Origin: Bacillus sp. Cs-700
GTDB lineage: Bacteria; Bacillota; Bacilli; Bacillales; Guptibacillaceae
Direction: 5' to 3'
Length of the DNA: 64,000 nt
NCBI RefSeq assembly: GCF_011082085.1
Contig: NZ_CP041063.1
Coordinates: 2,356,001-2,420,000 of the forward strand
How positions within the stretch are numbered: position 1 is the stretch's first letter; every line of letters starts with the position of its first letter. Of this stretch, positions 1 through 20,586 are shown in pieces. The translations under genes were made by a program, and so were the position numbers. A model generated the notes under the pieces. That model was not told the DNA's origin. It did no database searches and saw only the letters and a list, made by a program, of their open reading frames with translations.

Positions 1-2305
1 GTGCAATCGCAAGGGCATCAGGGAAATTCATTCCGTAAGCCACAACAGCTTTTTTAGCAGGATCCATCCGCTTTGCAATTTCGGCAGCTGTCTCAAATCG
101 GTCTTTACCACTAATACGCTCAACATCAAGCCCTAGTTTCTTTAGCTGGTCACGAACGGACTCCGAAACCGCGCCGCTTCCACCTAAAATGATCGCTTTT
201 GATGCGTTTAGACGCTTGATTTCATCCACCGTTTGGTCAGGAAGGCTTGATTTACCCGCTAGCAAAATCGGCGCCTTTAATTGATAGGCTAGTGGTGAGC
301 CTGCTAATGCATCAGGAAAATCTAACCCTCGCGCAATGAGCACGGTCGTTGCCGTATCATACGTATGCTCGCTGACAGCACTTGCAGTACCAAATCGATC
401 TGAACCTTTCACTCTTAAAATATCATGTAATTTCGTTTTCACAGTAACGGTTGGCCCATCCTTTGATTCATTGCCAGCAGAATCGACAGCTTGTACGGAA
501 AAACGATACGTGGTATTTGGCGCAAGGTTGGTTATTTTCATGCTGTTCTTATCGCTAACTGTTTGGATGACTTGATCATCCTGATAAATTTTATAATGGT
601 CGATTCCATCTTTATCTGATGCAGACGACCATGCAAGCTTTAATGAAAAAGCTTCTACTACACTTGCACGCAGGCTTTTGGTAGAAGGCCAGCTTGGTGG
701 CGTTGTATCCGTACCGATGCTAACTTCTATCCTCATGCCATCCATGCTACGGTCCAGGGCTTCTACAGATAGGTTTGAACTTGATCCATCATAAAGATTG
801 CTATTTGGTAAAGAAGAAGCATTAAAATTCGGATAATGATTCGCTGTGAAATAGTGCTCGTATTTTGAATGCCAATCTCCATTATCTAGCTCACTAAATC
901 CTCTTACAGCCTGGTTCGCTTCTTCCAAATCAACCAGCTTATTCCTTTCATTATCGTTTCCTCTATATTTCTGAGATTCATCAATGTGCCAGATTGCGAG
1001 TCCACCAGTTACAGTACGGTTTTGCAATCCTCGGTCATACCCGATATACTGCCGATTCTCAATTAAAAAATATTCGTCTGCTTTATCCGTGTTCACGCGA
1101 ATGGCCTTATAAGCCCCATCCTTGTTCGACTGAACCGAATACGTTCCTGACGAAGAAACGAGAGTAGGAATACTAAACCCTAGTTTTTCTTTTGACCATG
1201 CATCTAAATGAGTAGGCGTTTGTCCCTGGTATTCCCCATCCAAATAAGCCCACGATCCTTCTCCCATTAAGCTATGTACACCGACTCCAAGAGAAGAATT
1301 GTCGCGATCATATAAATCAGGTAACCCTAAATCATGGCCTAGTTCGTGAGCCATAATTCCAATTGTCGCCATATGGCCACCCTGCGTTTCACCAAACTGC
1401 ATGTATCCTCCCTTTCCTTCTAATGAAGCAACTTTCACGCCATCTAGCTTAGGAACATCGTTTAGGACAAGACTACTGCGGTGTCCCCACACGCTTGGAG
1501 AAGGATCGGAAAAGCTTCCTTCGCCTCCAGCTACGATTGTCACAATGTGAAGCTCGTTTGTGCTAATGTAGCCATCTTTGTTCGTGTCATAGGTTTTGTA
1601 ATCAACCTTTGCGTCGGACGCTTTCAAAGCGTCTGAAACAATTTTGTTGTATAGCGCGTTCTCCGTTTGTTTTCCAACAGGATCCGGATGATTATACGTT
1701 AAGGAGACAGTAGCGATTCCATTCGAAGTACCGCTTGATTCAGATGCTGGCTCGAATTGAAGCTTTCCGTTTGAGACCTCATCATAGTAATTCTTAACTG
1801 ATTTACCTGTAGGACTAAAAAAAGTATTATTCCAGCTTGCTTCAGAGTACTTTATTTTCTTATCTTGAAAGTTTACTAGCAGAACAAGCAATGGATGCTT
1901 GTCTACCTGATTCGTAGATTGAATCGTGACCTGATTGATCTCAGGCCGTTCAGTAAACCGTTTGCTATCTTCTGTATCAGGGAGCTTCAACATCTCATCG
2001 TGTCTAGCGGCTGATTCCGGTACGGCATCGATTCCTACCTTTGCTTCTGTACGAATTAATTTCTCGTCTTTTAACATGGCATAAACCCAGTAGTTGTTAT
2101 CTTCTTGTAAAATCACCTGGCCCTCAGCTGTCTCAAACCAGTGACGAACTTCATCCCCTGCAGCTTTTAATTCAAACTCCAATCCGTTTGGTTGGCTCTC
2201 CGACCTTGTTTGATCAGAAGCCGGTGCAGCATGTGTTGTGACGTTCAACATAAAGAACACAAGTATCGTTAGTAGTCCAATTTTGTCTAGTCGTGTGCTT
2301 TTCAT
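1..2305 (-). CDS. Secreted M6-family (immune inhibitor A-like) metalloprotease with CWB2 repeats, C-terminus cut by window edge
   Basis: The frame is open from an ATG at 2305, preceded by GGGGAG, to the left edge, giving 768 residues without a stop. A signal peptide (about 1-26) precedes an M6 peptidase domain. The zinc site is HELGH at 320-324 followed by D330 (HExGHxxGxxD). A calcium-loop-like segment, DTNKDGYISTNE (240-251), lies before it. A fibronectin type III-like domain (about 540-625) leads into CWB2 repeats from about 629; the window ends inside the repeat block. It should cleave proteins outside the cell while held on the wall by CWB2. It is the first of six minus-strand genes with the same C-terminal block. 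The family is secure; the substrate is unknown. Confidence 0.9.
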   Translation of the reverse strand, partial: MKSTRLDKIGLLTILVFFMLNVTTHAAPASDQTRSESQPNGLEFELKAAGDEVRHWFETAEGQVILQEDNNYWVYAMLKDEKLIRTEAKVGIDAVPESAARHDEMLKLPDTEDSKRFTERPEINQVTIQSTNQVDKHPLLVLLVNFQDKKIKYSEASWNNTFFSPTGKSVKNYYDEVSNGKLQFEPASESSGTSNGIATVSLTYNHPDPVGKQTENALYNKIVSDALKASDAKVDYKTYDTNKDGYISTNELHIVTIVAGGEGSFSDPSPSVWGHRSSLVLNDVPKLDGVKVASLEGKGGYMQFGETQGGHMATIGIMAHELGHDLGLPDLYDRDNSSLGVGVHSLMGEGSWAYLDGEYQGQTPTHLDAWSKEKLGFSIPTLVSSSGTYSVQSNKDGAYKAIRVNTDKADEYFLIENRQYIGYDRGLQNRTVTGGLAIWHIDESQKYRGNDNERNKLVDLEEANQAVRGFSELDNGDWHSKYEHYFTANHYPNFNASSLPNSNLYDGSSSNLSVEALDRSMDGMRIEVSIGTDTTPPSWPSTKSLRASVVEAFSLKLAWSSASDKDGIDHYKIYQDDQVIQTVSDKNSMKITNLAPNTTYRFSVQAVDSAGNESKDGPTVTVKTKLHDILRVKGSDRFGTASAVSEHTYDTATTVLIARGLDFPDALAGSPLAYQLKAPILLAGKSSLPDQTVDEIKRLNASKAIILGGSGAVSESVRDQLKKLGLDVERISGKDRFETAAEIAKRMDPAKKAVVAYGMNFPDALAIA

Positions 2306-2431: not shown

Positions 2432-2443
2432 CTAATAGATGAT

Positions 2444-4186
2444 TCACTTCAAGTCAGCTAAATCTTTTTCGATATCGATGACGCTATTCCCGCCCAGGAG
2501 ATTAAATTGATCATAAGAATTCTTTTCTAGAAGCATTCCTGTACCTGTCGGAAGTCGGTTTGACCAAGAGAGGTATAGAGGAGCGTCATTCTTTGCAGCA
2601 AGCACGGCTCCTGTTAATGCGTCAGCAAAACCTTTTCCAGTCGCAAAATACGCTTGCTCGTTTCCAAGAGGAAGGTTCTTAATAATTTCCTGGTTCGTTT
2701 CAAAGCGATCTTGCCCTGCATATCGCTCATAATCTGTTATTTCTGTGAGAGCTTTTTCACTAATCACGCCGTTACTTCCTACGACAATGACATTGTCATA
2801 GTTTTGGATTTCAGCAGCCGTTTCTTTTGGAAGCTTATCCGTTAAGGAAAGATAAATCGGATAAGCATTCCTCGCTGCAAATGGGGCAATCGATAAGGCA
2901 TCAGGATAATCCATACCATACGCAAGAACTGCCGTGTTATTCTTCTTTGGCAGGTTATCAGCGATGATCGCTGCTGTATCAAAGCGATTTTTTCCTCCGA
3001 AACGATCTACTTCAATCCCCATTGATTTGATTTCATTACTTACCTTGTCAGTGATCGCACCAGAACTTCCTAAAATGATCACCTTTTTCGGTCGTAATCT
3101 CTCTAACTCTTTCTTCGTTGAATCAGTAAGCTTATTATCCTCTGTTAAAAGCATTGGGGCGTCATGCTGATACGCAAGGGGCGTTCCTGCAAGTGCATCA
3201 GGGAATTCTCCGCCTCTTGCTAAAACAACAGTCTCCGCATGATCCCACCCTTTTTGTGAGATCGCAACGGCTGTTTTATAGCGATCTTTTCCAGAAAGGC
3301 GTTCTCCTAATTGCGTCATTTCGATAGAAGAGATATAGCCGATCGCACCATCGTCTGTCTCCGCTTTATACCAAACATAATGGTTGTTTAGCGGATCCGC
3401 TGAGCTATCATATAAGTTCGAACTGAGTAACGTTAAAGGACGAGGCGTCGTTGTCGATTCTTCGATGATGGAAGCACTTGTCGTTGGCGCTTCACGTAAT
3501 CTTGCTGAAGATAAGACAATCTCATTTTCTTGATACAGTTGAGACGTTTGATGAAGTTCACTTTCAGGAAGCTCGTAATGACTCTCTTTAAAATAAAGTT
3601 GATTACCGCTACCATATTCAAAATCTTCTAGCTCAAAATTAAATGGAATTGGATGAAATTCGCTATACAAGTTTGAATTCTCAATCGTTTGATAGACTTG
3701 CTCTTGATACGCCTCTAAGTTTCGTTCAGTTGAATCTTTACTTAAGAAGATTGGACTATTTTCCTGCACCTGCCCATTGTAGGCTAATACCGCGAAATAC
3801 CAGCTTTCAAGCACATCTCGTTCATTATCATTTACAGTTGGGAGCTTGCCACTTTTCCCCTCAAATTTCTCATTAAGAATTTGAAGGCCACTGCTAATGT
3901 TGTAAGCGACATCGTTTTTCAACCGCTCCTGGTCGAAACGAGAATCGTTTGTCACCTGCATGACCCCAATCCCACCATCTTCTGAAATGAGATCCTGGTT
4001 CCAGGCGCTTTCTTCAAAAGCGACTGCCTTTGCAATTTCTGGCGGAATGTCTTGTTTAATTGCTTCTTCTGTTAAGAGTTTACTAATCTCTGCTTTCGTA
4101 CTTGACTCTTTTGCCGCGACACCGCCAGTTCCAAATCCACTTACAATTAGTAAAGCGATAACTACTTGAATCACTCTTTTCTTCAT
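2444..4186 (-). CDS. Secreted lytic transglycosylase-like (SLT) protein with SH3-like segment and three CWB2 repeats
   Basis: 580 residues. A signal peptide (1-25) is followed by an SLT goose-lysozyme-like domain (about 31-150). That domain keeps the ES motif with catalytic Glu59 (FEESAW), the GVMQ motif at 74-77 and AYN at 135-137. An SH3-like stretch (about 225-290) comes before three CWB2 repeats (about 295-580). The expected role is cleavage of peptidoglycan glycan strands at the cell surface. The gene has its own terminator and is separated from its neighbours by 138 and 170 bases. CWB2 repeats also occur in the B. subtilis autolysin system (LytB/LytC). Fold and motifs support the call; activity is inferred. 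Confidence 0.85.
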   Translation of the reverse strand: MKKRVIQVVIALLIVSGFGTGGVAAKESSTKAEISKLLTEEAIKQDIPPEIAKAVAFEESAWNQDLISEDGGIGVMQVTNDSRFDQERLKNDVAYNISSGLQILNEKFEGKSGKLPTVNDNERDVLESWYFAVLAYNGQVQENSPIFLSKDSTERNLEAYQEQVYQTIENSNLYSEFHPIPFNFELEDFEYGSGNQLYFKESHYELPESELHQTSQLYQENEIVLSSARLREAPTTSASIIEESTTTPRPLTLLSSNLYDSSADPLNNHYVWYKAETDDGAIGYISSIEMTQLGERLSGKDRYKTAVAISQKGWDHAETVVLARGGEFPDALAGTPLAYQHDAPMLLTEDNKLTDSTKKELERLRPKKVIILGSSGAITDKVSNEIKSMGIEVDRFGGKNRFDTAAIIADNLPKKNNTAVLAYGMDYPDALSIAPFAARNAYPIYLSLTDKLPKETAAEIQNYDNVIVVGSNGVISEKALTEITDYERYAGQDRFETNQEIIKNLPLGNEQAYFATGKGFADALTGAVLAAKNDAPLYLSWSNRLPTGTGMLLEKNSYDQFNLLGGNSVIDIEKDLADLK

Positions 4187-4356: not shown

Positions 4357-5976
4357 TTATTTGATTTTTTGGAGAGAGGTAATCACTTCTTGATTCACAG
4401 CTCCTTCTCCACCAAGAATCGTAAAATTCCTAACGCCAAGCTCAATAGCCGCTTTTTGAATGGACTCATCCATCTTCGTAGGCGGTACGAGGAGAAATGT
4501 ACTTTCTGATCTTGCAGCTAAAATCGATCCAGTTAAGGCATCTGCAAAGTTTGCACCCGTTGCTACGACTGCTTTATCAGCAGGGTTGAGCTTCATAGCA
4601 ATTTCCGCAGAAGTAGCATAACGATTAGCGCCACCATACCGCACCGGTGCTGGAAGCTGTCCAGCCACTTTTTCTGATACGACACCTTTTCCACCAACAA
4701 TAATACTATCCGCAAATTCTAGTAGTGCCGTTTCCGTAATTGCAGGAAGTTTAGTCTGCTGAGTTAATAGAATTGGGTACCCTTGCTTAGCCGCATAAGA
4801 AGCAATTGAAAGAGCATCTGGAAAATTCATTCCGTTTGCTACTACAGCTTTTGGAGGATTTCCATCCAGATAAGCTGCAATGTGGGCGGCTGTTTCAAAA
4901 CGATCTTTTCCTCCTAAACGCTTTGTTTTTAATCCTAACCCTTTCAATTCGTTCACCACATAATCAGAAACGGCACCGGTCCCACCCAAAACAATCGCAT
5001 GATGCGCACCAAGTCGATTAATTTCATTTTTCACAGCCAGGGGCAATGTTTCACCAGTTAATAAGATTGGCGCATTCTTTTTATAAGCTAGCGGAGCGCC
5101 CGACAAAGCATCAGGAAAATCATCTCCTCGTGCTAAAACCACCGTATCTGCTGCTTCAAAACTCGCCTCTGATATCGCCACAGCCGTTAAATAACGGTCC
5201 TTCCCAGCAATGCGCTCAATTCCAATCGGAAGGGCAGGTTTCATTTGTTTCCAGAATTCTGAAGCGATCGCTTGATATCCCGCCTGAGAAGGATGAACAT
5301 CGAGCGGATTCGGTAAGTAAGCTTGATAGTTTTCTGCAATCGCCTCATACGTTGGAACAAAGCCACTTCCTGAAGCCGTTGCGATACTTTCAATCCCTTT
5401 ATTAAGTTCTTTCGTAACATATGCAACTGCATCCTGCTGCTCTTTAGGATAAGCATAGAATGAATTGTAATAGCCCATTAGAAAAATAGATGCATCAGGA
5501 TTAAGTTTACGTATACCTGACATGATTTGGCCGTAATTATTTCTAGCTTTCGTAAGAATGGCACTGGCTACTGCAGGATCATTTAGTCCATTAGGATCCT
5601 TTTTCAATACCTCCAGCAGATCATTTGCACCAACACTTATCGTAATTAAATCTGTATTTGCAATAGCTAGTTGCAAATCTGCATTTGTTTGGAGCATCGC
5701 CAACATCTCTGAAGTAGTTAATCCTGAACGCGCATAGCTTTTATTAAATTGCTTTAATCGATCCAAATCTGTTAAATAATCCGCTATGTAGTCTGCATAG
5801 CTCAAACCATCTTTTCCATCGTATTGAAGACCATGAGCAAGGGAGTCACCAAGAGCGAGATAATCCCATTTTTGAACCTGAGCTTCTGCACTAACCGCAT
5901 TACTAAATGACGGAGAAATGATCATTAGAACAAGGCAAATGAGAAATACAAACTGTGCTTTTTTCTTCGCAACCAA
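4357..5976 (-). CDS. Secreted SGNH/GDSL-type hydrolase with three CWB2 repeats
   Basis: 539 residues in the longest frame, which starts with TTG. A signal peptide (about 1-30) precedes an SGNH hydrolase domain (about 36-250). Nucleophile Ser45 sits in ALGDSLAHG, block III is SVGAND (Asn119), and block V DVHPSQAG supplies Asp227 and His229. Three CWB2 repeats fill about 254-539. These enzymes are esterases or lipases; the substrate here is unknown. The start is odd. The good ribosome binding site GGAGGG serves an ATG near 5988 that is out of frame, and the TTG lies 19 bases from it. One more A in the A6 run near 5964 would put the ATG in frame. A frameshift or sequencing error at the 5' end is therefore possible. 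Confidence 0.85.
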   Translation of the reverse strand: MVAKKKAQFVFLICLVLMIISPSFSNAVSAEAQVQKWDYLALGDSLAHGLQYDGKDGLSYADYIADYLTDLDRLKQFNKSYARSGLTTSEMLAMLQTNADLQLAIANTDLITISVGANDLLEVLKKDPNGLNDPAVASAILTKARNNYGQIMSGIRKLNPDASIFLMGYYNSFYAYPKEQQDAVAYVTKELNKGIESIATASGSGFVPTYEAIAENYQAYLPNPLDVHPSQAGYQAIASEFWKQMKPALPIGIERIAGKDRYLTAVAISEASFEAADTVVLARGDDFPDALSGAPLAYKKNAPILLTGETLPLAVKNEINRLGAHHAIVLGGTGAVSDYVVNELKGLGLKTKRLGGKDRFETAAHIAAYLDGNPPKAVVANGMNFPDALSIASYAAKQGYPILLTQQTKLPAITETALLEFADSIIVGGKGVVSEKVAGQLPAPVRYGGANRYATSAEIAMKLNPADKAVVATGANFADALTGSILAARSESTFLLVPPTKMDESIQKAAIELGVRNFTILGGEGAVNQEVITSLQKIK

Positions 5977-6124: not shown

Positions 6125-8584
6125 TTATTCAGAAAGCTTTTTCAATACGTCGTCACTTACCGCACCAGTTCCACCAGTTACAGTAAAGTTCGTTGCATCT
6201 AATTCATCAATCGCATCTTCTGTTGCTTCAGGTAACTTGTTCGGCTGAACAAGTAGAATTGAAGCATTTTCTTTTGCTGCAAGTACGGATCCTGCTAATG
6301 CATCAGCAAAATCCATCCCAGTTGCGACAAATACTTTTGCAGAAGGATTCAAATCAGTTGCAATGGTTGCTGCTGTAGCAAAACGATCTTTACCAGCATA
6401 GCGTTTTGCATCTGGTAGCATGTCTTTTACTTTTTCACTTACGACGCCTGATCCACCTGCAACAATAGTGTGATCAATGCCACTAATTGCACGATCTGTT
6501 ACTTTCGGTAACTTGTCATCTTCCGTTAATAGAATCGGGAAGCCATTACGTGCTGCATAAGAAGCAACAGATAGGGCATCCGGGAAGTCCATACCGTTTG
6601 CAACAACGGCCTGCTCAGGTGAGCCGCCTAGACGCGCTGCAATATTCGCCGCTGTTTCAAAACGATCTTTCCCATTGATTCGCTCTGTGTCAATATCAAG
6701 TCCTTCAATTTGATACTCAACATAATTGCTAACTGCACCCGTGCCGCCAAGAATGAACACTTTCTTCGCGCCAAGACGCTGAATTTCTGCTCTTACTTCT
6801 TTATTCAAAGACTTTTGCCCTGTTAGAAGAATCGGGGCATCCATTTTATAAGCAAGAGGTGCTCCTGCTAACGCATCAGGGAACTGATCGCCGCGGGCTA
6901 ATACAACATAATCAGACTGCTCCCAGCCAGATTGTGAAACGTTGATCGCTGTTTCATAACGATCTTCTCCTGATAAGCGCGTTGTGTCAGCTTCAACGAT
7001 ACGAGCTTCCTCTTTTGCTTTTACTGTTCCAATCTCATCAAGGTATTCAGTGAATACTTCATAGTCGATTAAATAAAGCTCATTAATTCGACCTTCTGAC
7101 GCTGCTTTCCCCATTTCATCGTAGCCGTCTCCACCTTGTGCAATATAGGCATTCGTTGCTACTGTATACGTTGCTTCGGGATCGATATCCTTATAGCCGT
7201 CTTCTGTTTTCACATTCACGTCAAGAATACGTTCATCAGAAGGAAGATCCTTGTCAAAAGAATATTTCAATCCAGAAACTTGCGCGAATCGTCCTTGTTC
7301 CGTTTCCACACTGCTTACACCGTGCTCTAATGAATCAATAATTTCTTGACCGGTTAGATCGATGGTTACGAGATTATTCCCAAACGGCATAGTCGTTAAC
7401 ACTTCACCTAAAGTAATTGGCCCTTTATCAATAGACTCGCGAATGCCTCCACCGTTCGTGATGGCAATAGTTGCATCAGTGAGCTGCTGAGCTTTGTAAA
7501 GCATGGCGTCCGTAATTAAGTTTCCTAGATTCGTTTCACCTGTTCTTACTGATGCACGTTTACCGTCCAGATAAACGTCTGATTGTCCAACAACTTCTTT
7601 TTCGATTTCTTCAAGTGGTTTTTTAAGGTCATCATAAAGGTCTTGAGCTTCTGGGTCCGCTTCAAATCCTTTCCCTTCATCAAGATTAAGAAGTTCATTG
7701 TCCCATTCTGTTAAAACACCTTCTGAATCAAAGGTTACTTCCAAATCACCGAGGTATTTGCTATATTCATTGGCTTGAACAACAAGCGTAGGGTCCTCAA
7801 ATGTATCGACAACAACAGCTTCTTCGATTTTCGTATGGCTATGTCCACCAACGACCACGTCAATGCCTTCGACTGTTTTAGCAAGCTCTACTTCAACCGA
7901 CTTCCCAAGGTGAGTAAGCGCAATGATTTTGTTTACACCTTTATCCTGTAACATTTTCACCATCTTTTGCGCTTGCTCCTGATGGTTTAGAAAAGAGATT
8001 GTGTCGCCTGGGCTTGATAGTTCATCTGTCGATTCGATCGTTAAACCAAAGACACCCACTTCTTCACCGTTCACATCAAGAATTACCGCAGGATAAATCG
8101 TACCATCGTCGCCGGTCATCGCCATTTCGTTTTTGTATAGAGGGCTAAGGTCCGGGTCTTTGCTGTAGTCGATATTTGAGCTGACGATCGGGAATTTTGT
8201 TTGCTTCACAAATTCTGAAAACGTCTTTGGCCCTTCATCAAATTCGTGATTTCCTGGAACCATGGCATCGTAGTCCATCATGTTCATGAACTGCACATCT
8301 GCAAGACCTTTGTATTTATTAAAGAATAACGTTCCAGAGAAAACATCACCTGCATCCAGTAGAATCGTGTTTGCACGAGCAGCGCGAATCTCTTCAACCG
8401 CCGTTAGACGCCTTGGTGCATTATCCAAGTGGGCGTGCGTGTCATTCGTGTGCATGATCGTTAAATCGAAATCGCCTGTTGCAGCTTCTGCAGGAGTTGA
8501 CGGTGCAGCGGCAGCAACCCCCATTGCTAGTGCTGCTGTTGATAGAACGCCGAAAAGTGGTTTTTTCAAATTCATTTGTGTCAT
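6125..8584 (-). CDS. Secreted 5'-nucleotidase (UshA/YhcR-type metallophosphoesterase) with three CWB2 repeats
   Basis: 819 residues with a signal peptide (cleavage near 35). The calcineurin-like phosphoesterase domain shows DTH (48-50), D80, GNHE (111-114) and GGHSH, the usual dimetal ligands. A 5'-nucleotidase C-terminal domain (about 335-520, with NGGGIRES) binds the nucleobase. CWB2 repeats occupy about 532-819. The enzyme should dephosphorylate extracellular nucleotides to nucleosides and phosphate. The adjacent upstream gene is a large nuclease; in B. subtilis YhcR both activities are in one wall-anchored protein. The start could also be the in-frame ATG at 8575. Confidence 0.9.
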   Translation of the reverse strand: MTQMNLKKPLFGVLSTAALAMGVAAAAPSTPAEAATGDFDLTIMHTNDTHAHLDNAPRRLTAVEEIRAARANTILLDAGDVFSGTLFFNKYKGLADVQFMNMMDYDAMVPGNHEFDEGPKTFSEFVKQTKFPIVSSNIDYSKDPDLSPLYKNEMAMTGDDGTIYPAVILDVNGEEVGVFGLTIESTDELSSPGDTISFLNHQEQAQKMVKMLQDKGVNKIIALTHLGKSVEVELAKTVEGIDVVVGGHSHTKIEEAVVVDTFEDPTLVVQANEYSKYLGDLEVTFDSEGVLTEWDNELLNLDEGKGFEADPEAQDLYDDLKKPLEEIEKEVVGQSDVYLDGKRASVRTGETNLGNLITDAMLYKAQQLTDATIAITNGGGIRESIDKGPITLGEVLTTMPFGNNLVTIDLTGQEIIDSLEHGVSSVETEQGRFAQVSGLKYSFDKDLPSDERILDVNVKTEDGYKDIDPEATYTVATNAYIAQGGDGYDEMGKAASEGRINELYLIDYEVFTEYLDEIGTVKAKEEARIVEADTTRLSGEDRYETAINVSQSGWEQSDYVVLARGDQFPDALAGAPLAYKMDAPILLTGQKSLNKEVRAEIQRLGAKKVFILGGTGAVSNYVEYQIEGLDIDTERINGKDRFETAANIAARLGGSPEQAVVANGMDFPDALSVASYAARNGFPILLTEDDKLPKVTDRAISGIDHTIVAGGSGVVSEKVKDMLPDAKRYAGKDRFATAATIATDLNPSAKVFVATGMDFADALAGSVLAAKENASILLVQPNKLPEATEDAIDELDATNFTVTGGTGAVSDDVLKKLSE

Positions 8585-11600: not shown

Positions 11601-12652
11601 TCTACTGGTTTAATGACAAATTCGCCCGTAGCGTCTTCAGCCGTGAAATTACCGTTGCTGTCGACTGATTTAATCATGACGTCTGTAAACTGTGTGAACG
11701 AAGCTTCGTGCTGTTCACCATTTTCTTTTGAAAGATCTGTTGATGTAAGTGGCTGAGGGGACGGAATGCCTTTGTCTTCTGTTGTCTTTACGACTTTAGA
11801 AGCGTCTGTTTGAATTTGCTGCATGCCATAATAATCTGACATGGTGCCTTCTGCGGTTACTTCATCACCAGGCTGAGCTGTAATACCTGCTGCACGAACA
11901 ATAATGGCTGCAGTATCATCCTGGATAAATAGGTTTGTTTGGCCACCAGTTTCAAAGGATGCAGTGGCAGTTCCTTTTATTTTCACTTGTGTACCGTTTG
12001 CTACTTTTCTAGCATCTGTAATGGTTGAGAGTTCGATAGGATCCGGATCTGGAGCTGTGCCGTCAGAAAGGTGGGCGCCGAGGTAGTCCGTCGTATCTTT
12101 TGCGTATTGCGTCCATCCACTTGTAACGTCGTAGGCATCAGTCGCATCTGTATCGCCTGATTTAATACCGTTATTACGAACAAGCGTCATATCTTTCGCA
12201 AAATCGTCAGCTGAACCAATTTGGCCGATGGAATCAATGACTGCGTCTGTTTTTTTGAGGACAACAACATCATTTCCGTTAAAATTCACGACGGATTGAT
12301 TTGTTACATCAGCCTGATCTAAAATCGACTGAATGGATTGATCGTGGGCGAGGACAAACACTTCTCCATCAGCAAGTTTTCCTTCTAGAGATAAGGAATA
12401 CTTTGGAGCTGTCTCCCCGTTGGAGTAAAGTTCAAGAGTGTAATTTGCTAAATCAAGTTCATTTCCTGTTCCATTGAAAAGTTCAAGCGCTTTGTTGTAG
12501 CTCCCGCCTTCAATGTACTCTGAAATAATCAAGTCCTGAAACGTCTCTTCAGCTGCTGACGCATACTGAGAAACAGGAGCTGCGAAAAAACTAAGAACCA
12601 TTGAGAATATTAGCGCAAAGCTAATAAAACGACTGGTTGATCTTCGTTTCAA
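8681..12652 (-). CDS. Very large secreted nuclease (lamin-tail, OB-fold, EEP) with three CWB2 repeats
   Basis: 1323 residues. The TTG start at 12652 has GGGGGG eight bases upstream. After the signal peptide (about 1-33) come a lamin-tail domain (about 35-150), a YhcR-type OB fold (about 205-375), a chitobiase-C-like segment (about 385-465), a second OB-like region and an endonuclease/exonuclease/phosphatase (EEP) domain (about 740-1035). CWB2 repeats end the protein. EEP motifs are intact: SYNIENY, GLIEVQ, ANHFNS, GDLNDF and SDHDPV. The layout resembles ExeM-type extracellular DNases. It should degrade environmental DNA or RNA and feed the 5'-nucleotidase encoded 96 bases downstream. Confidence 0.9.
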   Translation of the reverse strand: MKRRSTSRFISFALIFSMVLSFFAAPVSQYASAAEETFQDLIISEYIEGGSYNKALELFNGTGNELDLANYTLELYSNGETAPKYSLSLEGKLADGEVFVLAHDQSIQSILDQADVTNQSVVNFNGNDVVVLKKTDAVIDSIGQIGSADDFAKDMTLVRNNGIKSGDTDATDAYDVTSGWTQYAKDTTDYLGAHLSDGTAPDPDPIELSTITDARKVANGTQVKIKGTATASFETGGQTNLFIQDDTAAIIVRAAGITAQPGDEVTAEGTMSDYYGMQQIQTDASKVVKTTEDKGIPSPQPLTSTDLSKENGEQHEASFTQFTDVMIKSVDSNGNFTAEDATGEFVIKPVDKSLLEVGKTYELLKGVIDYNYNEYKLVPRSAADVIEKAFSVTANPASGSVLEGTMVKLATAEEGATVHYTTDGSDPTAESTEYTAPIELTEDTTIKAIAAKDGQTSEVTTFSYTVLKSADGISIHDIQGAGHASPYEGKAVTKIAGIVTAKDGNNAFYMQEENPDDNVATSEGIYVYKSGGAGVSVGDKVEVDGQVKEYREGGYSDAKDLLTTQITASSITVASSGNTLPEAIVIGEDRTPPTEIVEDDEMKTFDPKTDGLDFYESLEGMLIEIPDATVTGPVKYDELPVYVNASEDQLFTRANGLLLTADDPNPERLLIDVDGIDIDVTTGDRLDGSVTGNVSYDYSNFKIRPTGTFPSVIEGDTEREVTKIETTDGDLTIASYNIENYYPGVGEEKTGKIAESIVKNMKTPDIVGLIEVQDNNGPTDDGTTKANESYEAIIQAIEEAGGPTYKFADIAPADKTDGGQPGGNIRVGFIYNPDRVTFPEKKSGDATTSVGVDENGLTLNPGRIDPTNEAFDDSRKALAAEFEFNGEKVVVVANHFNSKGGDGALFGADHPVVLGSEVQRMKQASVVNNFVNEVVTNMDDGNVVVLGDLNDFEFSKPIETLEGDVLTNMINKLPTEQRYTYNYQGNAQVLDHILVSNNLAKRTMIDSININSDFSEADGRASDHDPVLAKIQFKNKVERISGKDRYKTAIEVSKAGWEKSDTVVLARGDDYPDALAGAPLAYKYDAPILLNAQNKLNAEVLEELQRLEAKKVIILGGSGAISTYVEYQLEGYGFDASRISGKDRFETAANIAARLDGNPAKAVIADGYNYPDALSVASYAAVKGYPILLSGKTKLPAATKTALREVDESIVVGGTGVIGAEVFKQLPEPKRYSGKDRYETAATIATELVGETDTAYIATGKGFADALTGSVLAAKDEAVMLLVETNKVPESTKQAIEELEINQFRVLGGTGPVSDDVLNQFKN

Positions 12653-13191: not shown

Positions 13192-14049
13192 TCAGAGACT
13201 AGGAAGAATCTCTTTTTCAATCGAATGAAAGCTATGATAAGGACGTATACCTTGATTCATTAGACAGGTTGTTCCCTGCCTGAATCGAGCGTCATTGCTT
13301 ATAAAAACAAAGACTTTTCTTGCATGCTTTCGAGCAAAGTGAGCGGTCGTCATCGCACCACTTTTTACGTCAGCTTCCATGACCACAACATGACTTGACC
13401 ATGCACTGATTAACGCGTTTCGCTGAATAAATTGCTTTGGAGTAGGTGCTGTGCCAGGTGGATACTGCGATATGACAGCGCCTTCATTAATGACTGCTTC
13501 GTAGAGCGAGCGGTGCTCTTTCGGGTAACAGTCGTCAACCCCCGTTGCAACAAAAGCAATCGGTTGCCCACTATTTGCGAGGCAGGCAATGTGAGCAGCA
13601 TAATCGATGCCTTTCGCGAGACCGCTAATAACAGGTATGCTCAGGCTTGAGAGTCTGGTGGATAACTCTTCGGCAGCATGTCGTGCGTGACCGGAACATG
13701 AACGGGAACCAACAATACTGACAGAAGGTAAGGATGGTTTAATATGACCTTTGACATATAAAAGGACAGGCGATTCAGCAACATCTTTTGCATAACTCGG
13801 ATATAGCGGGTCATCTCGGGGTAAAAGCCAGATCTCCTTTTGCTGAACAAGGTCAAGAATCCGCTTCGATTTTTCAAGAGAACGCGCAGCTGCAATAGCT
13901 TCGCGGGCACGAGGAGAGATTCCGATTTCCTTTAGTTCAGATGGAGAGGCATGATAGACTCGTTCTGGATTTCCGAAGGCGCCCAGTAATTTCTTTTGCG
14001 TTACAGGGCCAATATGCGGAATCGAACTTAGCCAGATCCAGCGCTCCAT
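13192..14049 (-). CDS. Divergent DprA/Smf family DNA-processing protein
   Basis: 285 residues. A short helix-hairpin-helix-like N-terminus (about 1-60) precedes a Rossmann DprA core (about 80-285) with GSRSCSGHAR, SGLAKGIDYAAH and QYPPGTAP. DprA binds single-stranded DNA and loads RecA during natural transformation. Some family signatures are changed: the usual FPxRNRIIAGLS reads FIQRNALISAWS, and the PGN motif after the last strand is replaced by ISN. There is no topA neighbour, unlike the usual Bacillus locus. It lies 46 bases downstream of the RAYT gene and may share its transcript. It could be a second, specialised Smf; whether another dprA exists cannot be seen here. Confidence 0.8.
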   Translation of the reverse strand: MERWIWLSSIPHIGPVTQKKLLGAFGNPERVYHASPSELKEIGISPRAREAIAAARSLEKSKRILDLVQQKEIWLLPRDDPLYPSYAKDVAESPVLLYVKGHIKPSLPSVSIVGSRSCSGHARHAAEELSTRLSSLSIPVISGLAKGIDYAAHIACLANSGQPIAFVATGVDDCYPKEHRSLYEAVINEGAVISQYPPGTAPTPKQFIQRNALISAWSSHVVVMEADVKSGAMTTAHFARKHARKVFVFISNDARFRQGTTCLMNQGIRPYHSFHSIEKEILPSL

Positions 14050-14095: not shown

Positions 14096-14713
14096 TTACT
14101 GCGGTAAATTGGAGAGCAGATAAACCTTTTTTCCTTTCCATTCTGGCAATTGTTGCACAAGACCTGGTGGCAATGATGGTTCCTCATTTTCGACGTAGCG
14201 CTGATAAGCTTCCCGTGAAGGTTTTTGAAACAATGAGAGTATGTAATCAGGGTAAGCATGTGGATTCTTTCGATATGAAATATACGCACAATAACTGCTC
14301 CACATATAGTCCGCTGGTTTAGCAACCATTCGGGCTTTAACTGGATTAAGGTGAATGTATTTACTTACATCAATTTCATAATCAATTGAATCTAGCAGTT
14401 CAGCTTTGTAGCGACCTTGAAAAACGTGTCCTGTGTACTCATATTTGTCGTTGAAATATCTAGCATAGTTGGAGTTGATCACTTTCATGATTTCACCAGG
14501 GGGATGGTCGAAGGTTTCGATGGAGAGATGCACATGGTTAGTCATGAGACAGTATACGTGTAGGCGAAATGGAAAAGTGAGACGAGCTTGTTCTAGAATT
14601 TGAAAATACTTTTGACGATCGATTCGTTCTTCAAACAACGGTGCTTTTCGATTTCCACGGCAGATAATGTGATACTTTGCACCAGGAAACCAGGTTCGTT
14701 TCTTACGAGGCAT
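14096..14713 (-). mobile_element. REP-associated tyrosine transposase (RAYT, Y1/HUH family)
   Basis: 205 residues, ATG start with GGAG upstream. It has the family's MPRKKR N-terminus, an HVH metal-binding HUH motif in TNHVHLSIE, a conserved Tyr-rich stretch (NSNYARYFND), and the GHVFQGRYKAELL and YIHLNPVKARM blocks. RAYTs are single-copy Y1 nucleases related to IS200 transposases. They cut short REP palindromes rather than their own ends. Four such palindromes lie within 10 kb, two of them in its upstream gap. No flanking insertion-sequence ends are visible, so this looks like a domesticated resident gene. The palindromes as its substrate are inferred from this proximity. Confidence 0.88.
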
Positions 14714-14980: not shown

Positions 14981-15009
14981 AAAAGTGTCCACCTGAGATG
15001 GACACTTTT
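14981..15009 (-). terminator. Rho-independent terminator after the amylase gene
   Basis: An 11-bp perfect stem AAAAGTGTCCA/TGGACACTTTT, followed on the minus strand by TTTTTC. REP-like copy d lies between it and the stop at 15067, so that palindrome is in the mRNA 3' end. Confidence 0.85.
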
Positions 15010-15066: not shown

Positions 15067-18000
15067 TTACCTCTCCATCATTTCCTTTACCACTTTCTCA
15101 CTAACTGCTCCTGTGCCACCTAAAATCGTAAATTCGTTTGCTTTTAAAGTTCCAACAGCTTCTTTCGTAGTTTCAGGTAATTTGTCAGGCTGTACTAGAA
15201 GCACTGTTGCTTCTTGTTTTGCAGCAAGGACTGATCCCGCTAAGGCATCAGCGAAGTCCATACCTGTCGCCACAAAAACGTGGTGAGAAGGATTTAATTC
15301 TGTTGCCACTTTTGCGGCTGTACCAAAACGATCCTTGCCAGAATACCTTGTTGGTTTTGGAAGAAGTTGCGCTACTTTTTCGCTCACAACTCCTGTGCCG
15401 CCTACTACAATCGTGTTCTCTTTTGATTTCAGTACTTTTTTCGTTTCATTCGGAAGCTTTTCTTTCATCGTAAAAAGAATCGGGTAGCCTTTTTCTGCAG
15501 CATAAGCGCCAGCTGACAGAGCATCAGGAAAATCGAGTCCATTTACAACGATCGCTTTTTCGGAATCTCCCATACGAGCTGAGATATTTGCGGCCGTTTC
15601 AAATCGGTCATGACCTCCAATTCGATCGACTTTGATGCCCATTCCTCGAAGTTGATAGGCAACATAATCTGAGACGACGCCTTCTCCTCCTAAAATAATC
15701 ACTTTCCCTGGAGTAAGACGCTGAATTTCTTTTTTAGTGCTACTAGTCAACTTGTCCTTACCTGTAAGAAGAATAGGAGCATCTAATTGATAAGCATAAG
15801 GAACACCAGCAAGCGCATCTGCGAACTCATCTCCCCTTGCCAGGATTACCGTGTCTGCTTTTTCCCAGCCTTCTTTAGAGATCTCAACTGCCGTTTCATA
15901 GCGGTCTGAACCTGACAACCTCACAGGCTCTTTCGCTTCCGCTTCCCCAGCCTTCGAAGTCACTTTCCACGTATATTTCTTTGTATTTTTTCCAATTGCT
16001 CCACCATCGTTGTTAAAGATGGCAGTTTTATTTTCTTCTGATGGTTCAATCGTGATCGGTATTTCATTTTCGCCATTTTCAAGCGTTACTTCATGCGTAA
16101 ATGTCATATCCTCATTTATTGCCACTTTTTCCCCATTGATGGTGAGGTTACCTTCTTTAATTGCATTTCCTTTGAACGTAACTGTGTCACCTTCCACAAC
16201 CGCTCCATTTTCAGGCGAATTCACGACAACCGGCATGTCGATCCAGCGGAGAATTTCATCCTGTACGACCATTTTATTACTGCCCTGATTTGTTACCGTT
16301 ACTTTAAGGTCTGTGCCTTCCGCTCCGTAACCATAGTAGCTCACGTCATCGTCTGACTTATCGTTACGTGTATGGTCCGCAAGACCCTCTTGCTCCCAAG
16401 ATTCTCCTTTTACATATTTGTACGTTAAAATCGTCCCTTCAGGGAAAGATTTTTGAATTTCCCAGTCTGGTGAAACCGCTCCGTTACGAGACATCTCCCA
16501 CGCGCTCGTACTCCATCCATTTTGATCACCTGGCATCGTTACTTTCGCGCTAAGCGGCGTATCGTCTGGGGCATGGACTTTAAACGTAACCTCAACCATC
16601 ACAATATCAGGCGTTATCTTCACTTCATTGGAAGCGGTTTGATTGCCAGCTTGATCATACGCCACGATGCGATATGTGTACGCTTCTCCATTCTGTACAG
16701 CAAAATCCGTGTAAGTAGTTGTCTCTGCATTTTCGATTAGATCAAGGGTTTCACCATTACGTTCTACCGCTAAAAGATAAGCACCGTCAGCGCCATCAAG
16801 CTTCCAGTTCAACGTCACTTGACCGGACTCTTTTAGTGGCTCCTCTAGTTTCACCGCATCCGCAGGCGCATTCGTATCTTCTTGGTTTTGGGTAAACGTT
16901 ACTTCTTCTGTGTTCGTTGTTTTCCACGTTGCACCACGATCGGTTGAAAAAGCAAGTCGATAAGCATAGGTCCCTTTTTCAATCGGACGGAAATTAGCTT
17001 TAAATTTGTTAAATGCTCCATCCTGACCCGTATAAATTGCCTTTGACTCCTGCCACTCGCCCTCACCCTGCTTCACTTGAAGCTTTCCAATTAAGCCCTG
17101 TGCAAGGTCAGTTTCCGTAGCGCCTTCCATTTTCACACCCGCTTCAATCGCAAAGGTGTTTGCTAGATCGAGCACCTGGTCTGGGATTGCCGTTACAGAA
17201 GAGATTTCATATTTTCCTTCTTTCCACTCAATGTGTGGAATGGTTGGTTCCGTCGTTTCGACCTTAACGGATTCATTTCCATCTTCATCTACTGCCGTTA
17301 CTGCAAAATAGTAGGCCTGGCCGTTTGTTAATCCGTCGACGGTCAGGTCATTGCCTTCTGTTACATCAACTTCTTCATACATCGCGCCTTGAAGCGTTGA
17401 GCGATACACTTTGTATTTCGCTGCGTCACCTGTCCATGACAGAGTTGCGCTTCCTTCTCCAGTAGCAACTTTTAAATCAGTTGGGGCTTTCGGAAGTTCA
17501 AGATTCTGTCCTTGATCCGCAATTAGCATGCGACCAGTCATCGCAGGAATGGTAACAGATACTTTACCGTCTTTGACCGATACGCTATACTCCTTCGCAA
17601 GTCCATCAGTAAAGGTGATTTTATTTTTCACAACATCTTTTACATCTAGATCGATCGTTTGTGCTTTCGCGCCGCGGTTCACTGCAATGATTGCTGCACC
17701 GTCCTCACTTGTACGCGCGAACGCATAAACATCTCCATCTGCATGCAGCGTTGTGAGCTTTCCATAGGCAAGAAGATCTGCATTTTCAGTACGAATTGCT
17801 CCTGCAGCTTGATAGTGCTCGATCAGATTTGTATTTTCATCACCCCATGGGTATGTGCGGCGGTCGTCAGGATCTTTAGAGCCCGTTACGCCAGCTTCGT
17901 CTCCATAATAAATTGTTGGAGCACCTGGATAGCCCATTTGTAGCACGGCAGCTAGCTTGAGACGCTGCACGCCAAGCTTATGATCGTAATTCGGATCGAA

Positions 18001-20586
18001 TTCTGCTCGCTCATACGTATCCGTTCCGCCGCCAAGAACGTAAATGGCACGCGGCGTATCGTGAGAGCCCATTAAGTTCATAAGCGCATGGAACGCTTCA
18101 TCAGGATAATCTTCCTCTACCGCCATCAGCTTCTCATCTGCACTCGCGGCATCTCCGCTTTTCAAGAAATTTAGAATGGCGCCTTCAAAGCGATAGTTCA
18201 TAACAGAGTCATATTGATCGCCAAGGAAGTACTTAGAAGCATCATCCCAGATTTCACCGAGAATAAGCGGTTCTTCTCCTTCTTTTAACGTCGCGCCCGC
18301 ACCGGACATTTCTTCAGACTTAAGTTCTTTTCGGAACTCACGCCAGAATTCCATATCCACTTCATTCGCTACATCAAGGCGCCATCCGGACGCACCATTA
18401 GTTAACCATGATTTGGATGCAGAATCTTTGTCATACATAATGTAATCCGCAAATTTTTCGTTGTTTAATTCGCTATCATAATCAACCGCATCGCCTTCAA
18501 TGCTTTTGATTTCAGGAAGGGAATCGTATCCCCACCATGCCTGGTATTCGTAACGTTCATTCCCATTTTCATCGGTTACTTTTTCATTTTTAAGATTAAA
18601 CCAGTTGTGGAATCCGTATTCGTCATTAAACGTTTGCCCTTCATTCTCGAGCTGTTTACGCGCTTCTGTTTTTGCTTCTTCTTCACTCATGCCCTCTTCA
18701 TTCATGAGATCATAAATGCGAGACCAGTATTCATAAGCACCCACTACCTCATATTTCCCGTAGCGGTCAAAATAGATGGAGTCATCGCCAACGTGATTAA
18801 ACACGCCGTCCATAATCAGATGCATGTCACGTTTTTCGAGTTCATCCGTAAACGCTGTAAATTCTTCCGGTGAGCCAAACATCGGATCAACCGCTTTCCA
18901 ATCCGTTGCATCATATTTGTGGTTTGATGCTGCCTTAGCGATTGGATTTAAATAGATTGTATTAACACCGAGTGATTGGATGTAGTCGAGCTTTTGCTGA
19001 ATCCCTTTAATATCGCCACCAAAGAAATCATTGCTCCAAATTCCATCACCATCGTAATTGGCACTATCCGCAAGCCTTGGATTATCCGGTAGCTCTCCCC
19101 AATCCTGATCTTCAATTGGCTCTGGACCACGCGCCGTTTCCTTTGCATCGTCATTGCCTTCATTTCCATTGTAGAATCGATCAGGGAAAATTTGATACAC
19201 AACAGCTTCCTTCATCCAGTCTGGCGTTTTATATCCTGGATCAAAGACCGTTAATTGGTAGAGTTCTGCATTCGCATCTACTGCTTTTCCTGCTTCACCC
19301 TGCTTCGTATCTTCTCCGTATTCCGCTTTAGCTGAACCATCACGAACGATAAATTTATAGCCATAAAGGCCTTTTTCTTCAGGCGTTACTGTCGCTTCCC
19401 AGTAATCTTTCCCGTCTGAAGTAGCAGCTTTTTCCATTGCAATCAATTTACTTGTACCTGTATTTTGATTTTTAATAGAAAGATCGGCTTTTGTTAAATC
19501 ATCTTTTTTTGCTGCTAGACGAAGTGTTACCGTCTTTCCTTCTTGCACGGCACCAAATGGAGATCGAAACGCTTCTTCCCACGAGTTATGTAGAAGACTT
19601 GCCTTCGAAATGGCGCCATCTGATCCTTCCGCTGTATAATCTGTACTTACTTCTTTTGTTTCTGTATTAAAAAAGAACGTAACGTCCGCCTTTTCAATCA
19701 CGTTTAATTTTGCATTATCTGTAGGATAATCTTCTCCCCAAGTATCTCCAAGCACAACTTTATACTCATAGTTTCCTTTAGGTACACTTGTTGAAAAGGA
19801 ATAAACGTTATCAAAATTATCATCAGTAAACAGCGCAGTAGACTGTTCAGGACTCCATTCAGCCCCCGCATCAATCCCAGGTTGAATCGAACCAACAAGT
19901 CTTGGTTGTTTATCTGTCGTCACCGGCGTATAGGTCGTTGAGTTCGCAATGGCGTGAGTTTCATCATGATAATAAAACGTCACTTTCGTCTTTTCATCTA
20001 GCGTTAGTTTCAAATTGTTCGCACCATCTCCATAGCTTTCTCCCCACGATTGGTTGATCGCTACCTTATACTCATACGTCCCAGCTGGGAGTTCACCAGA
20101 GAATTCATAAAACCCTTCTCCTTTTGCTTCCATCTTTGTTTCCTCAGACGCTGGATCCCATTCTCCCGCAGCTCCAAGCTCGTCCTGCAAATCACCGACA
20201 AGGGTTACAATCCGTTCATCCGTCGTCTCACCAATTATAAACGTACTGTTATCGCTACCATTTGGATTTAAAGGATCCTTCATCCATTCATCCCCTACGA
20301 TAAATTTGTACTGATGAAGTCCATCCGATAAATTATCTATCGTTAACTTCCAGACACCATCTACCTTCTCGAGTGGTAGCGCTCCTTCCTGCCAATTGGT
20401 AAAATCACCGGCTACAAGAACCGATTCCTCGCTCCCATCTCCTTCATAAATAAACGTTGCTGACGTTCCATCAATAACAGGACTACTAGCTGCCTTCACT
20501 GTTCCTGGAATAGCCCCAGCAAGTAGTTGTATAACAAGAATAATGACGAGTGACAGTGAGAGTTTTCTTCGATTACCCCTTTTCAT
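15067..20586 (-). CDS. Secreted multidomain alpha-amylase/pullulanase (GH13) with starch-binding modules and three CWB2 repeats
   Basis: 1839 residues from the ATG at 20586, which has AAGGGGGAAAAGG before it and opens a clear signal peptide. The frame extends 49 codons further but without signal-peptide or SD support. In order: a CBM48-like module, two X25-like starch-binding modules, a neopullulanase-type N-domain, a GH13 barrel, a fibronectin III domain, a second beta-domain, another fibronectin III, a CBM20-like module, and CWB2 repeats from about 1553. Catalytic Asp738 (GWRLDVANE), Glu778 (LGEIWD) and Asp843 (GSHDT) are present. It should hydrolyse starch or pullulan at the cell surface. 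Two LacI/CcpA-like operators lie upstream. Exact bond specificity is not clear. Confidence 0.93.
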   Translation of the reverse strand: MKRGNRRKLSLSLVIILVIQLLAGAIPGTVKAASSPVIDGTSATFIYEGDGSEESVLVAGDFTNWQEGALPLEKVDGVWKLTIDNLSDGLHQYKFIVGDEWMKDPLNPNGSDNSTFIIGETTDERIVTLVGDLQDELGAAGEWDPASEETKMEAKGEGFYEFSGELPAGTYEYKVAINQSWGESYGDGANNLKLTLDEKTKVTFYYHDETHAIANSTTYTPVTTDKQPRLVGSIQPGIDAGAEWSPEQSTALFTDDNFDNVYSFSTSVPKGNYEYKVVLGDTWGEDYPTDNAKLNVIEKADVTFFFNTETKEVSTDYTAEGSDGAISKASLLHNSWEEAFRSPFGAVQEGKTVTLRLAAKKDDLTKADLSIKNQNTGTSKLIAMEKAATSDGKDYWEATVTPEEKGLYGYKFIVRDGSAKAEYGEDTKQGEAGKAVDANAELYQLTVFDPGYKTPDWMKEAVVYQIFPDRFYNGNEGNDDAKETARGPEPIEDQDWGELPDNPRLADSANYDGDGIWSNDFFGGDIKGIQQKLDYIQSLGVNTIYLNPIAKAASNHKYDATDWKAVDPMFGSPEEFTAFTDELEKRDMHLIMDGVFNHVGDDSIYFDRYGKYEVVGAYEYWSRIYDLMNEEGMSEEEAKTEARKQLENEGQTFNDEYGFHNWFNLKNEKVTDENGNERYEYQAWWGYDSLPEIKSIEGDAVDYDSELNNEKFADYIMYDKDSASKSWLTNGASGWRLDVANEVDMEFWREFRKELKSEEMSGAGATLKEGEEPLILGEIWDDASKYFLGDQYDSVMNYRFEGAILNFLKSGDAASADEKLMAVEEDYPDEAFHALMNLMGSHDTPRAIYVLGGGTDTYERAEFDPNYDHKLGVQRLKLAAVLQMGYPGAPTIYYGDEAGVTGSKDPDDRRTYPWGDENTNLIEHYQAAGAIRTENADLLAYGKLTTLHADGDVYAFARTSEDGAAIIAVNRGAKAQTIDLDVKDVVKNKITFTDGLAKEYSVSVKDGKVSVTIPAMTGRMLIADQGQNLELPKAPTDLKVATGEGSATLSWTGDAAKYKVYRSTLQGAMYEEVDVTEGNDLTVDGLTNGQAYYFAVTAVDEDGNESVKVETTEPTIPHIEWKEGKYEISSVTAIPDQVLDLANTFAIEAGVKMEGATETDLAQGLIGKLQVKQGEGEWQESKAIYTGQDGAFNKFKANFRPIEKGTYAYRLAFSTDRGATWKTTNTEEVTFTQNQEDTNAPADAVKLEEPLKESGQVTLNWKLDGADGAYLLAVERNGETLDLIENAETTTYTDFAVQNGEAYTYRIVAYDQAGNQTASNEVKITPDIVMVEVTFKVHAPDDTPLSAKVTMPGDQNGWSTSAWEMSRNGAVSPDWEIQKSFPEGTILTYKYVKGESWEQEGLADHTRNDKSDDDVSYYGYGAEGTDLKVTVTNQGSNKMVVQDEILRWIDMPVVVNSPENGAVVEGDTVTFKGNAIKEGNLTINGEKVAINEDMTFTHEVTLENGENEIPITIEPSEENKTAIFNNDGGAIGKNTKKYTWKVTSKAGEAEAKEPVRLSGSDRYETAVEISKEGWEKADTVILARGDEFADALAGVPYAYQLDAPILLTGKDKLTSSTKKEIQRLTPGKVIILGGEGVVSDYVAYQLRGMGIKVDRIGGHDRFETAANISARMGDSEKAIVVNGLDFPDALSAGAYAAEKGYPILFTMKEKLPNETKKVLKSKENTIVVGGTGVVSEKVAQLLPKPTRYSGKDRFGTAAKVATELNPSHHVFVATGMDFADALAGSVLAAKQEATVLLVQPDKLPETTKEAVGTLKANEFTILGGTGAVSEKVVKEMMER

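Follow-up and report, generated by a model that had tools for sequence, protein, structure and literature searches.

We analysed a 64,000-nucleotide stretch, hereafter the window, of the chromosome of Bacillus sp. Cs-700 (contig NZ_CP041063.1, positions 2,356,001 to 2,420,000; genome G000, a single contig of 4.30 Mb), whose left part carries a cluster of genes encoding enzymes fused to CWB2 (PF04122) wall anchors. Bare coordinates refer to the window and coordinates in kb to the G000 genome. The original prediction had named six minus-strand genes here with protease, transglycosylase, SGNH hydrolase, nucleotidase, nuclease and amylase domains, each joined to a CWB2 block of roughly 280 residues. 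This description holds, since all six were found, each with a C-terminal CWB2 match (E-values 1.1e-56 to 1.5e-67 in the five complete window genes), and the blocks are 277-279 amino acids long with three repeats each. The genus was represented by 14 genomes (G000 and 13 congeners, G001 to G013), while an order-wide CWB2 search covered 41 genomes. The following features were identified, in which A denotes one of the two anchor types described below.

2..2305, minus strand: M6 (InhA-like) metalloprotease with Fn3 and CWB2, running off the left edge (whole gene G000:C1:2355561-2358305, 914 amino acids)
2..415, minus strand: visible part of the M6 CWB2 block, type A
2444..4186, minus strand: SLT lytic transglycosylase-CWB2 protein, 580 amino acids
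2468..3301, minus strand: SLT CWB2 block, type A, with Ser at the third Gly site
4357..5976, minus strand: SGNH/GDSL hydrolase-CWB2 protein, 539 amino acids
4384..5214, minus strand: SGNH CWB2 block, type A
6125..8584, minus strand: UshA-like 5'-nucleotidase-CWB2 protein, 819 amino acids
6146..6979, minus strand: nucleotidase CWB2 block, type A, 63% amino acid identity to G009 (catalytic part 89%)
8681..12652, minus strand: ExeM/NucH-type nuclease-CWB2 protein with lamin-tail domain, 1323 amino acids
8702..9538, minus strand: nuclease CWB2 block, type A, 59% to G009 (catalytic part 86%) and 58% to G007 (catalytic part 94%)
13192..14049, minus strand: DprA, a non-CWB2 protein, not exchanged (87-95% nucleotide identity to G009)
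14096..14713, minus strand: Y1_Tnp (IS200-like) gene, not exchanged (94-99% nucleotide identity to G009)
15067..20733, minus strand: alpha-amylase with X25 (pullulanase-type), CBM20, CBM48-type, Fn3 and CWB2 domains, 1888 amino acids from a TTG start, with an ATG at 20586, where the region of the original prediction ends
15091..15921, minus strand: amylase CWB2 block, type A, a replaced tract with 51-72% nucleotide identity to G009 between flanks of 84-99%

G000 encodes 42 CWB2 repeats, all above the gathering score and arranged as 14 proteins with three tandem repeats each. The triple repeat was present in 186 of 186 proteins whose blocks were extracted from 17 genomes (172 of about 221 in the genus, the latter being 663 matches divided by three; outside it, 7 of 8 proteins in G014, 3 of about 9 in G020 and 4 of 15 in G038), and a single two-repeat frame of 197 amino acids in G003 was too short for extraction. 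Eight of the 14 G000 proteins lie at 2348-2377 kb, namely the six enzymes and two small proteins of 476 and 457 amino acids, the latter with a PPC match below cut-off. The cluster thus extends to the left of the window, where the small proteins flank an LtaS-like gene (2348-2354 kb) that belongs to the LtaS superfamily and scores 359 bits against the LtaS model NF053595, below its cut-off of 970; G000 has four further relatives. The other CWB2 proteins are two subtilases and a SpoIID-like protein (2003-2016 kb), a VanY (2217 kb), a pullulanase (2228 kb) and a LytC-like amidase (3448 kb). Neither the six window proteins nor the pullulanase reached the cut-off of 650 bits of the SlpA model (NF033435), the best score being 111 bits, most of it from the CWB2 region. 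The motif that Clostridioides difficile requires for anchoring, P[ILV][ILV][LV] (‘PILL’), reads in the five complete blocks of the window PILL or PMLL in repeat 1 and PILL, PILF or PIYL in repeat 2, and its position in repeat 3 mostly lacks the proline (TVLL, VMLL, SILL, TFLL, PLYL).

The dprA and IS200-like genes sit between the nuclease and amylase genes. The IS200-like gene occurs at the same place in G007, G011, G012 and G003, shares 94-99% identity with its G009 counterpart, and seems to be resident rather than newly inserted. The earlier claim that most of the enzyme genes have their own terminators found no backing, as a consensus scan of positions 1-20000 gave 15 terminator-like sites compared with 17.4 expected in shuffles; one strong palindrome (14981-15009, listed on the plus strand) lies below the amylase gene. 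Near the cluster, at 2340-2345 kb (L031:4478-8922), are sulfate adenylyltransferase-, SLC13 transporter-, APS kinase- and sulfotransferase-like genes, named from the starts of their sequences, which are present in G007 and were not found in the fetched part of G009.

Two anchor types and two polymer loci

We show that the genus has two CWB2 anchor types, A and B, and that, within a genome, nearly all of the CWB2 proteins fetched belong to the same type. Type A was found in four genomes (G000, G011, G003 and G010) and type B in the other ten, including G009, G007, G006 and G012. The CWB2 protein sets are complete for G000, G007, G009 and G011 and lack one or two proteins each in G003, G006, G010 and G012, while the blocks of G001, G002, G004, G005, G008 and G013 come from the cluster and nearby regions only. 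Block identity to G000 is 94-98% in G011 (five genes), 65-80% in G003 and G010 (six genes) and 51-63% in G009 and G007. The amylase catalytic parts of G000 and G011, by contrast, are 94-96% identical to those of G009 and G007 (three pairs computed), even though the blocks share only 51-63%. Between G000 and G009, catalytic and block identities are 95 and 63% for the amylase, 86 and 59% for the nuclease and 89 and 63% for the nucleotidase. The corresponding values are 95 and 95%, 91 and 98%, and 88 and 98% between the two type A genomes G000 and G011, and 95 and 95%, 86 and 92%, and 99 and 96% between the two type B genomes G009 and G007. For the latter pair, block identity is close to catalytic identity in five of the six genes, the remaining one being SLT (catalytic part 42%, block 48%).

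The relationships of the hosts follow a different pattern from the blocks. In the NuoL marker, G011, G009 and G007 are all 96-97% identical to G000, and G003 and G010 only 75%. The amylase catalytic part (94-95% for G009, G007 and G011; 76-77% for G003 and G010) and the nucleotidase catalytic part (88-89% and 71-72% for the same two groups) agree with NuoL. By the ABC-F marker, too, G003 and G010 are farthest from G000 (57-60%, compared with 82-83% for G009, G007 and G011 and 88-89% for G006 and G001).

In the amylase gene, the change is confined to the anchor alone, between conserved flanks: sliding nucleotide identity between G000 and G009, initially 93%, is only 51-72% across the block, and the DNA further downstream, the IS200-like gene and dprA are again 84-99% identical. 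The nuclease drops from 97% to 52-71% over its block, and the nucleotidase shows a smaller step, from 76-89% to 61-73%. The SGNH, SLT and M6 genes differ from those of G009 over the whole gene (catalytic part 44-52%). Separately, the N-terminal part of the nuclease (12100-12550) is 48-58% identical to G009 and 92-97% to G007, a second polymorphism that is independent of anchor type. Between its amylase and nuclease genes, G011 carries an extra CWB2 protein of 1435 amino acids (G011:C4:201911-206218); its block, a copied anchor, shares 94% identity with that of the G000 amylase.

The switch is also seen about 340 kb from the cluster, in SpoIID, with catalytic and block identities of 80 and 56% between G000 and G009, 97 and 97% between G000 and G011, and 93 and 95% between G009 and G007. 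Replacement extends over about 2013.5 to 2015.4 kb, within flanks that are mostly 89-98% identical between G000 and G009, and these limits mean that the replacement includes part of the SpoIID domain. The two subtilases differ over the whole gene, with catalytic and block identities of 58 and 56% and of 47 and 45% to G009, and of 79 and 80% and of 58 and 64% to G003. The pullulanase (97 and 85%) and the LytC-like amidase (98 and 95%) were not exchanged as blocks between G000 and G009.

Next to the subtilases lies a putative wall-polymer locus that differs between G000 (1984.2-2009.7 kb) and G009 (2937.2-2965.8 kb), within flanks of 97% and 94% identity. Its gene content was compared in eight genomes, and the remaining six were typed by two marker genes. 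The A locus (G000, G011, G003, G010) includes an initiating transferase, a Wzy_C protein, a PIG-L deacetylase, a flippase, an LCP protein, a hexapeptide acetyltransferase, a DegT aminotransferase, glycosyltransferases, a WecB epimerase, a sugar dehydrogenase and a MocA oxidoreductase. The B locus (G009, G007, G006, G012) has an initiating transferase and an LCP protein that are 58% and 59% identical to those of the A locus, glycosyltransferases, a MurG-like protein, two sugar dehydrogenases, a TagH-like exporter, a CWB2 amidase and WecB. The A locus is predicted to encode a Wzx/Wzy system, with above-cut-off matches for the initiating phosphoglycosyl transferase (PF00953), the flippase (PF01943), the Wzy-type polymerase (PF04932, 59.6 bits) and the LCP ligase (PF03816). 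In the B locus, PF00953, PF03816 and PF00005 were above cut-off and the TagH model scored 207 bits compared with a cut-off of 320; the ABC-2 permease was scanned as a 94-amino-acid fragment only and scored below cut-off. By analogy with the WbpA, B, E, D and I pathway of Pseudomonas, set A suggests a 2,3-diacetamido-uronic acid.

In all 14 genomes, anchor type coincides with one of these two loci, which are alternatives occupying the same chromosomal position. A DegT orthologue (83-100% identity) was found in all four type A genomes and none of the ten type B genomes (best 48%), and a 707-amino-acid B-locus gene (81-100%) in all ten type B genomes and none of the four of type A. The LtaS-like gene of the enzyme cluster, searched for in the same 14 genomes, has an orthologue (65-100%) in 4/4 type A and 0/10 type B genomes (best 35%). 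The difference between G000/G011 and G009/G007 spans the polymer locus, the CWB2 parts of the amylase and nuclease, the SpoIID tract and whole neighbouring genes. Three glycosyltransferases of the A locus (1994549-1998190) are only 48-69% identical between G000 and G011, representing subtypes within type A, and since the anchors of these genomes are nearly the same, those genes probably do not set the type. Outside the genus, G014 has the DegT gene (84%) and Gly at 14 of 21 of the diagnostic sites described below in its fetched blocks; G038 has the B gene (55%), a DegT relative (48%) and Gly at 0 of 12; and G020 has neither the DegT nor the B gene and Gly at 3 of 9.

Diagnostic residues and gene lineages

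Types A and B were contrasted site by site over nine proteins (eight kinds of catalytic domain, two of the proteins being subtilases, and three of the nine encoded about 340 kb from the cluster), with sites numbered by the amylase block and placed by alignment to PDB sequences. The SpoIID and the long and short subtilase (S8long, S8short) rows cover four A and four B genomes only; the second M6 copies G013_M6_67 and G008_M6_2484 and the protein G012_S8short_1517 were removed, and scoring did not extend to the small CWB2 proteins, the pullulanase, the amidase, VanY or strain-specific proteins. The observed recurrence score of 331 ranked first among all 256 per-protein flips of the A/B labels (next 271.7). 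The top sites, 81, 177 and 271, are the Gly two places after the GG in the motif ILGGxGxVS of each repeat, and carried Gly in 35, 35 and 31 of 35 A rows compared with 0 of 72 B rows each. Among all 172 in-genus blocks fetched, Gly occupied the three sites in 58, 55 and 55 of 60 A blocks and in 1, 0 and 3 of 112 B blocks, and two or three Gly were present in 58/60 A blocks and 1/112 B blocks, the one being the LytC-like amidase of G009.

Further sites are 104 (Lys in A to Asp/Glu in B), 6 (Asp to Asn/Thr), 244 (Gln to Lys) and 196 (Lys to Glu/Asp/Ala). The leading sites 81, 177, 271 and 104 are common to both contrasts, G000 and G011 against G009 and G007, and G003 and G010 against four other B genomes. 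Masking these Gly sites left the score in first place, narrowly (213.6 compared with 205.0), and a control split inside A ranked 89. In type B, the Gly sites hold a variety of residues (S, N, A, K, T, Q, D and others), and the diagnostic sites are mostly isolated, with lower scores at neighbouring positions.

In two cases, gene lineage and host type can be told apart. The M6 copies G013_M6_67 and G008_M6_2484 belong to the A-type M6 clade (support 95) in type B hosts; their residues are those of type B at 244 and the three Gly sites, and A-like at 6, 105 and 107. Being sisters, the two copies perhaps represent one event. The G000 pullulanase has Gly at 81 and 177 where G009 and G007 have Ser and Ala, in a protein with a catalytic part 97% identical to that of G009. 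Its block has 43 differences from G009, unevenly spread. Both cases are consistent with selection by the host wall.

The groups for the approximately unbiased tree tests were chosen after inspection of the block tree and identity table. A clade of G000, G011, G009 and G007 was rejected in four of four block sets (p 0.0007 or lower), whereas the amylase catalytic tree recovered this clade with a support of 100 and rejected a type A clade (p 7e-7).

Age of the cluster and competing explanations

The original prediction explained the cluster by local duplication of one anchor onto many enzymes, giving a modular digestive system, and proposed a phylogeny of the blocks as a check. In our tree of 72 CWB2 blocks from eight genomes, one clade (99/98) unites the blocks of the amylase, nuclease, nucleotidase and SGNH proteins, and the M6 block joins it at 85/84. 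The SLT block falls just outside at an open fork, and the block of the pullulanase, about 120 kb away, is nested inside the clade of the cluster enzymes, so that the expected grouping of the six was borne out only in part. Blocks sort by orthologue across congeners and not by genome, which indicates that the copying of anchors is ancient. The shared anchor is thus real, but the tree rules out that the cluster arose by recent local duplication. All 13 congeners have 39-58 CWB2 repeats each, and all six enzyme genes were found in the fetched regions of 12 of the 13 (G011 is without SGNH). Fusions of catalytic domains to CWB2 are older than the genus. Across the order, CWB2 is patchy (20 of 41 genomes, 14 of the 20 in the genus), and a CWB2 nuclease and a CWB2 nucleotidase are also adjacent in G020, a member of another family (G020:C1:2938447-2944956). 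This adjacency speaks for the model and would suit a pair of enzymes that scavenge nucleosides from DNA. The nucleotidase has named relatives in Pseudalkalibacillus hwajinpoensis and organisms close to it (8 loci). A joint digestive role of the amylase, protease, nuclease and nucleotidase is plausible. However, SLT is not digestive, the SLT protein and an NlpC/P60 neighbour without CWB2 looking like wall-remodelling enzymes, and the model leaves the A/B pattern unaddressed. Overall, we regard this model as possible but less likely than not.

We consider it likely that the CWB2 anchors of this genus are tuned to one of two wall polymers, and that they are exchanged or mutated when the polymer changes. 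The triple CWB2 block would act as a polymer-specific, non-covalent wall anchor; after a change in the polymer locus, unmatched anchors would fail to hold, and selection would then keep recombinants and mutants with fitting anchors. With somewhat less assurance, we favour an ‘anchor code’ in which Gly or non-Gly at the three pseudo-symmetric sites, together with a lysine/acid switch beside GxDRY, decides the polymer bound, and in which the surface proteome is re-fitted by anchor-confined exchange or by substitutions. These Gly and lysine/acid sites may contact the polymer, and type A could accommodate a bulkier or more anionic group. The window enzymes would then form a conserved group of exoenzymes that are displayed on the wall and were adapted to a new one.

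Several observations weigh against this interpretation. The control split inside B also ranked first of 256, and the rank alone is therefore untrustworthy; it is the effect size that carries the claim, as the control score was 52.7 (six times smaller), at other sites and with none above 5.6. The third site of SLT is Ser or Asp in type A. LytC-like amidases track type poorly, and that of G009 has A-like residues in a B genome, one clear exception. The ABC-F marker places the type B genomes G006 and G001 nearer to G000 than G009, G007 or G011. The nuclease catalytic tree rejects both groupings (type A p 0.0016), perhaps because of its variable N-terminal part, and the nucleotidase and SpoIID catalytic trees reject the clade of G000, G011, G009 and G007 (p 0.017 and 0.011) and not the type A group (0.29 and 0.096). 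With these three catalytic trees unsupportive, the amylase is the only clean case. Finally, type A occurs in only two places among the 14 genomes, which implies few independent switches, one or two.

The main rival explanation is that the two types fit two protein lattices, formed by the small 476- and 457-amino-acid CWB2 proteins, rather than two polymers. These small proteins switch type too, changes from K to D/E would suit lattice contacts, and CWB2 triangles tile by charge complementarity in the S-layer of C. difficile (PMC8881574). Nevertheless, the polymer locus itself switches in step in all 14 genomes, and the strongest sites recur in all three repeats within one motif as would be the case for a repeated ligand site. 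On this balance we regard a lattice as unlikely.

Less likely still is hitch-hiking, in which large type A donor segments were imported together with no functional match between anchor and polymer. The wholly type A stretch that holds SGNH, SLT, M6, the two small CWB2 proteins and the LtaS-like gene is what such an import might leave. The SpoIID tract and the polymer locus, however, are separated from each other by some 4 kb of DNA with 94% identity, and both are roughly 340 kb away from the cluster; the amylase catalytic part was kept and the interval between amylase and nuclease was not exchanged. Nor would hitch-hiking account for the unevenly spread pullulanase differences with Gly at two sites, or for the A-lineage M6 copies with B residues at the Gly sites in B hosts. 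Concerted evolution, with gene conversion among the CWB2 blocks of a genome spreading the shared residues, is the least probable explanation: the extra G011 protein indicates that blocks can be copied and a short exchanged tract in the pullulanase is conceivable, but blocks group by orthologue, and the mostly isolated shared sites and the diverse B residues at the Gly sites, which are not copies of one another, largely refute it.

If anchors are indeed matched to polymers, switching the wall polymer would cost a re-fitting of the surface proteins, and we found no description of such a cost among the literature matches listed. Wall polymers are common phage receptors, and such a cost would bear on the freedom of bacteria to change them. 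The natural A/B pairs, alike in their enzyme part but differing in the anchor, point to about ten candidate polymer-recognition residues in marine bacteria that are not known to be harmful, and the A and B blocks could serve as orthogonal anchors for surface display.

Comparison with known systems

The cell wall proteins of C. difficile resemble those described here in that a wide range of surface proteins carry three CWB2 repeats in tandem, at one end or the other; CWB2 binds the anionic wall glycopolymer PSII, and all three repeats are needed for anchoring (PMC4973711). They differ in that a single polymer, PSII, is described as ligand, and the available part of that source reports no matched switch of anchor and polymer (PMC4973711). 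At the diagnostic site, C. difficile Cwp8 and SlpA have S or N in the first two repeats, as in type B, and Cwp6 has G and Q. S-layer cassette switching in C. difficile (Dingle 2013) is said to be a recombinational exchange of one contiguous locus of CWB2 proteins, not a genome-wide change of anchor specificity.

The SLH domain, which binds pyruvylated SCWP, offers a second parallel, as a pseudo-trimeric anchor with a conserved Gly in its ligand site, in which a change of Gly29 to Ala deactivates the primary site. Its structural resemblance to CWB2 is limited to the three-helix core, and the CWB2 ligand site of C. difficile was, as of 2018, hypothesised from docking only (both from PMC6081394).

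Among the matches listed in the open-access literature, judged by title and the start of the abstract, we found no report of matched anchor-polymer switching. A close precedent comes from Bacillus subtilis, in which wall teichoic acid loci are exchanged whole by homologous recombination, with lytC and lytB inside the locus and falling into several orthologue clusters; the available text of that study makes no mention of CWB2, co-evolution or epistasis (PMC8753576). On the sources available, the swapping of wall teichoic acid cassettes is already known, and it is the matched switching of unlinked anchors that we did not find reported. In B. subtilis, as far as the accessible text describes it, the exchange is confined to the cassette (PMC8753576), whereas in the genus studied here unlinked anchors change as well.

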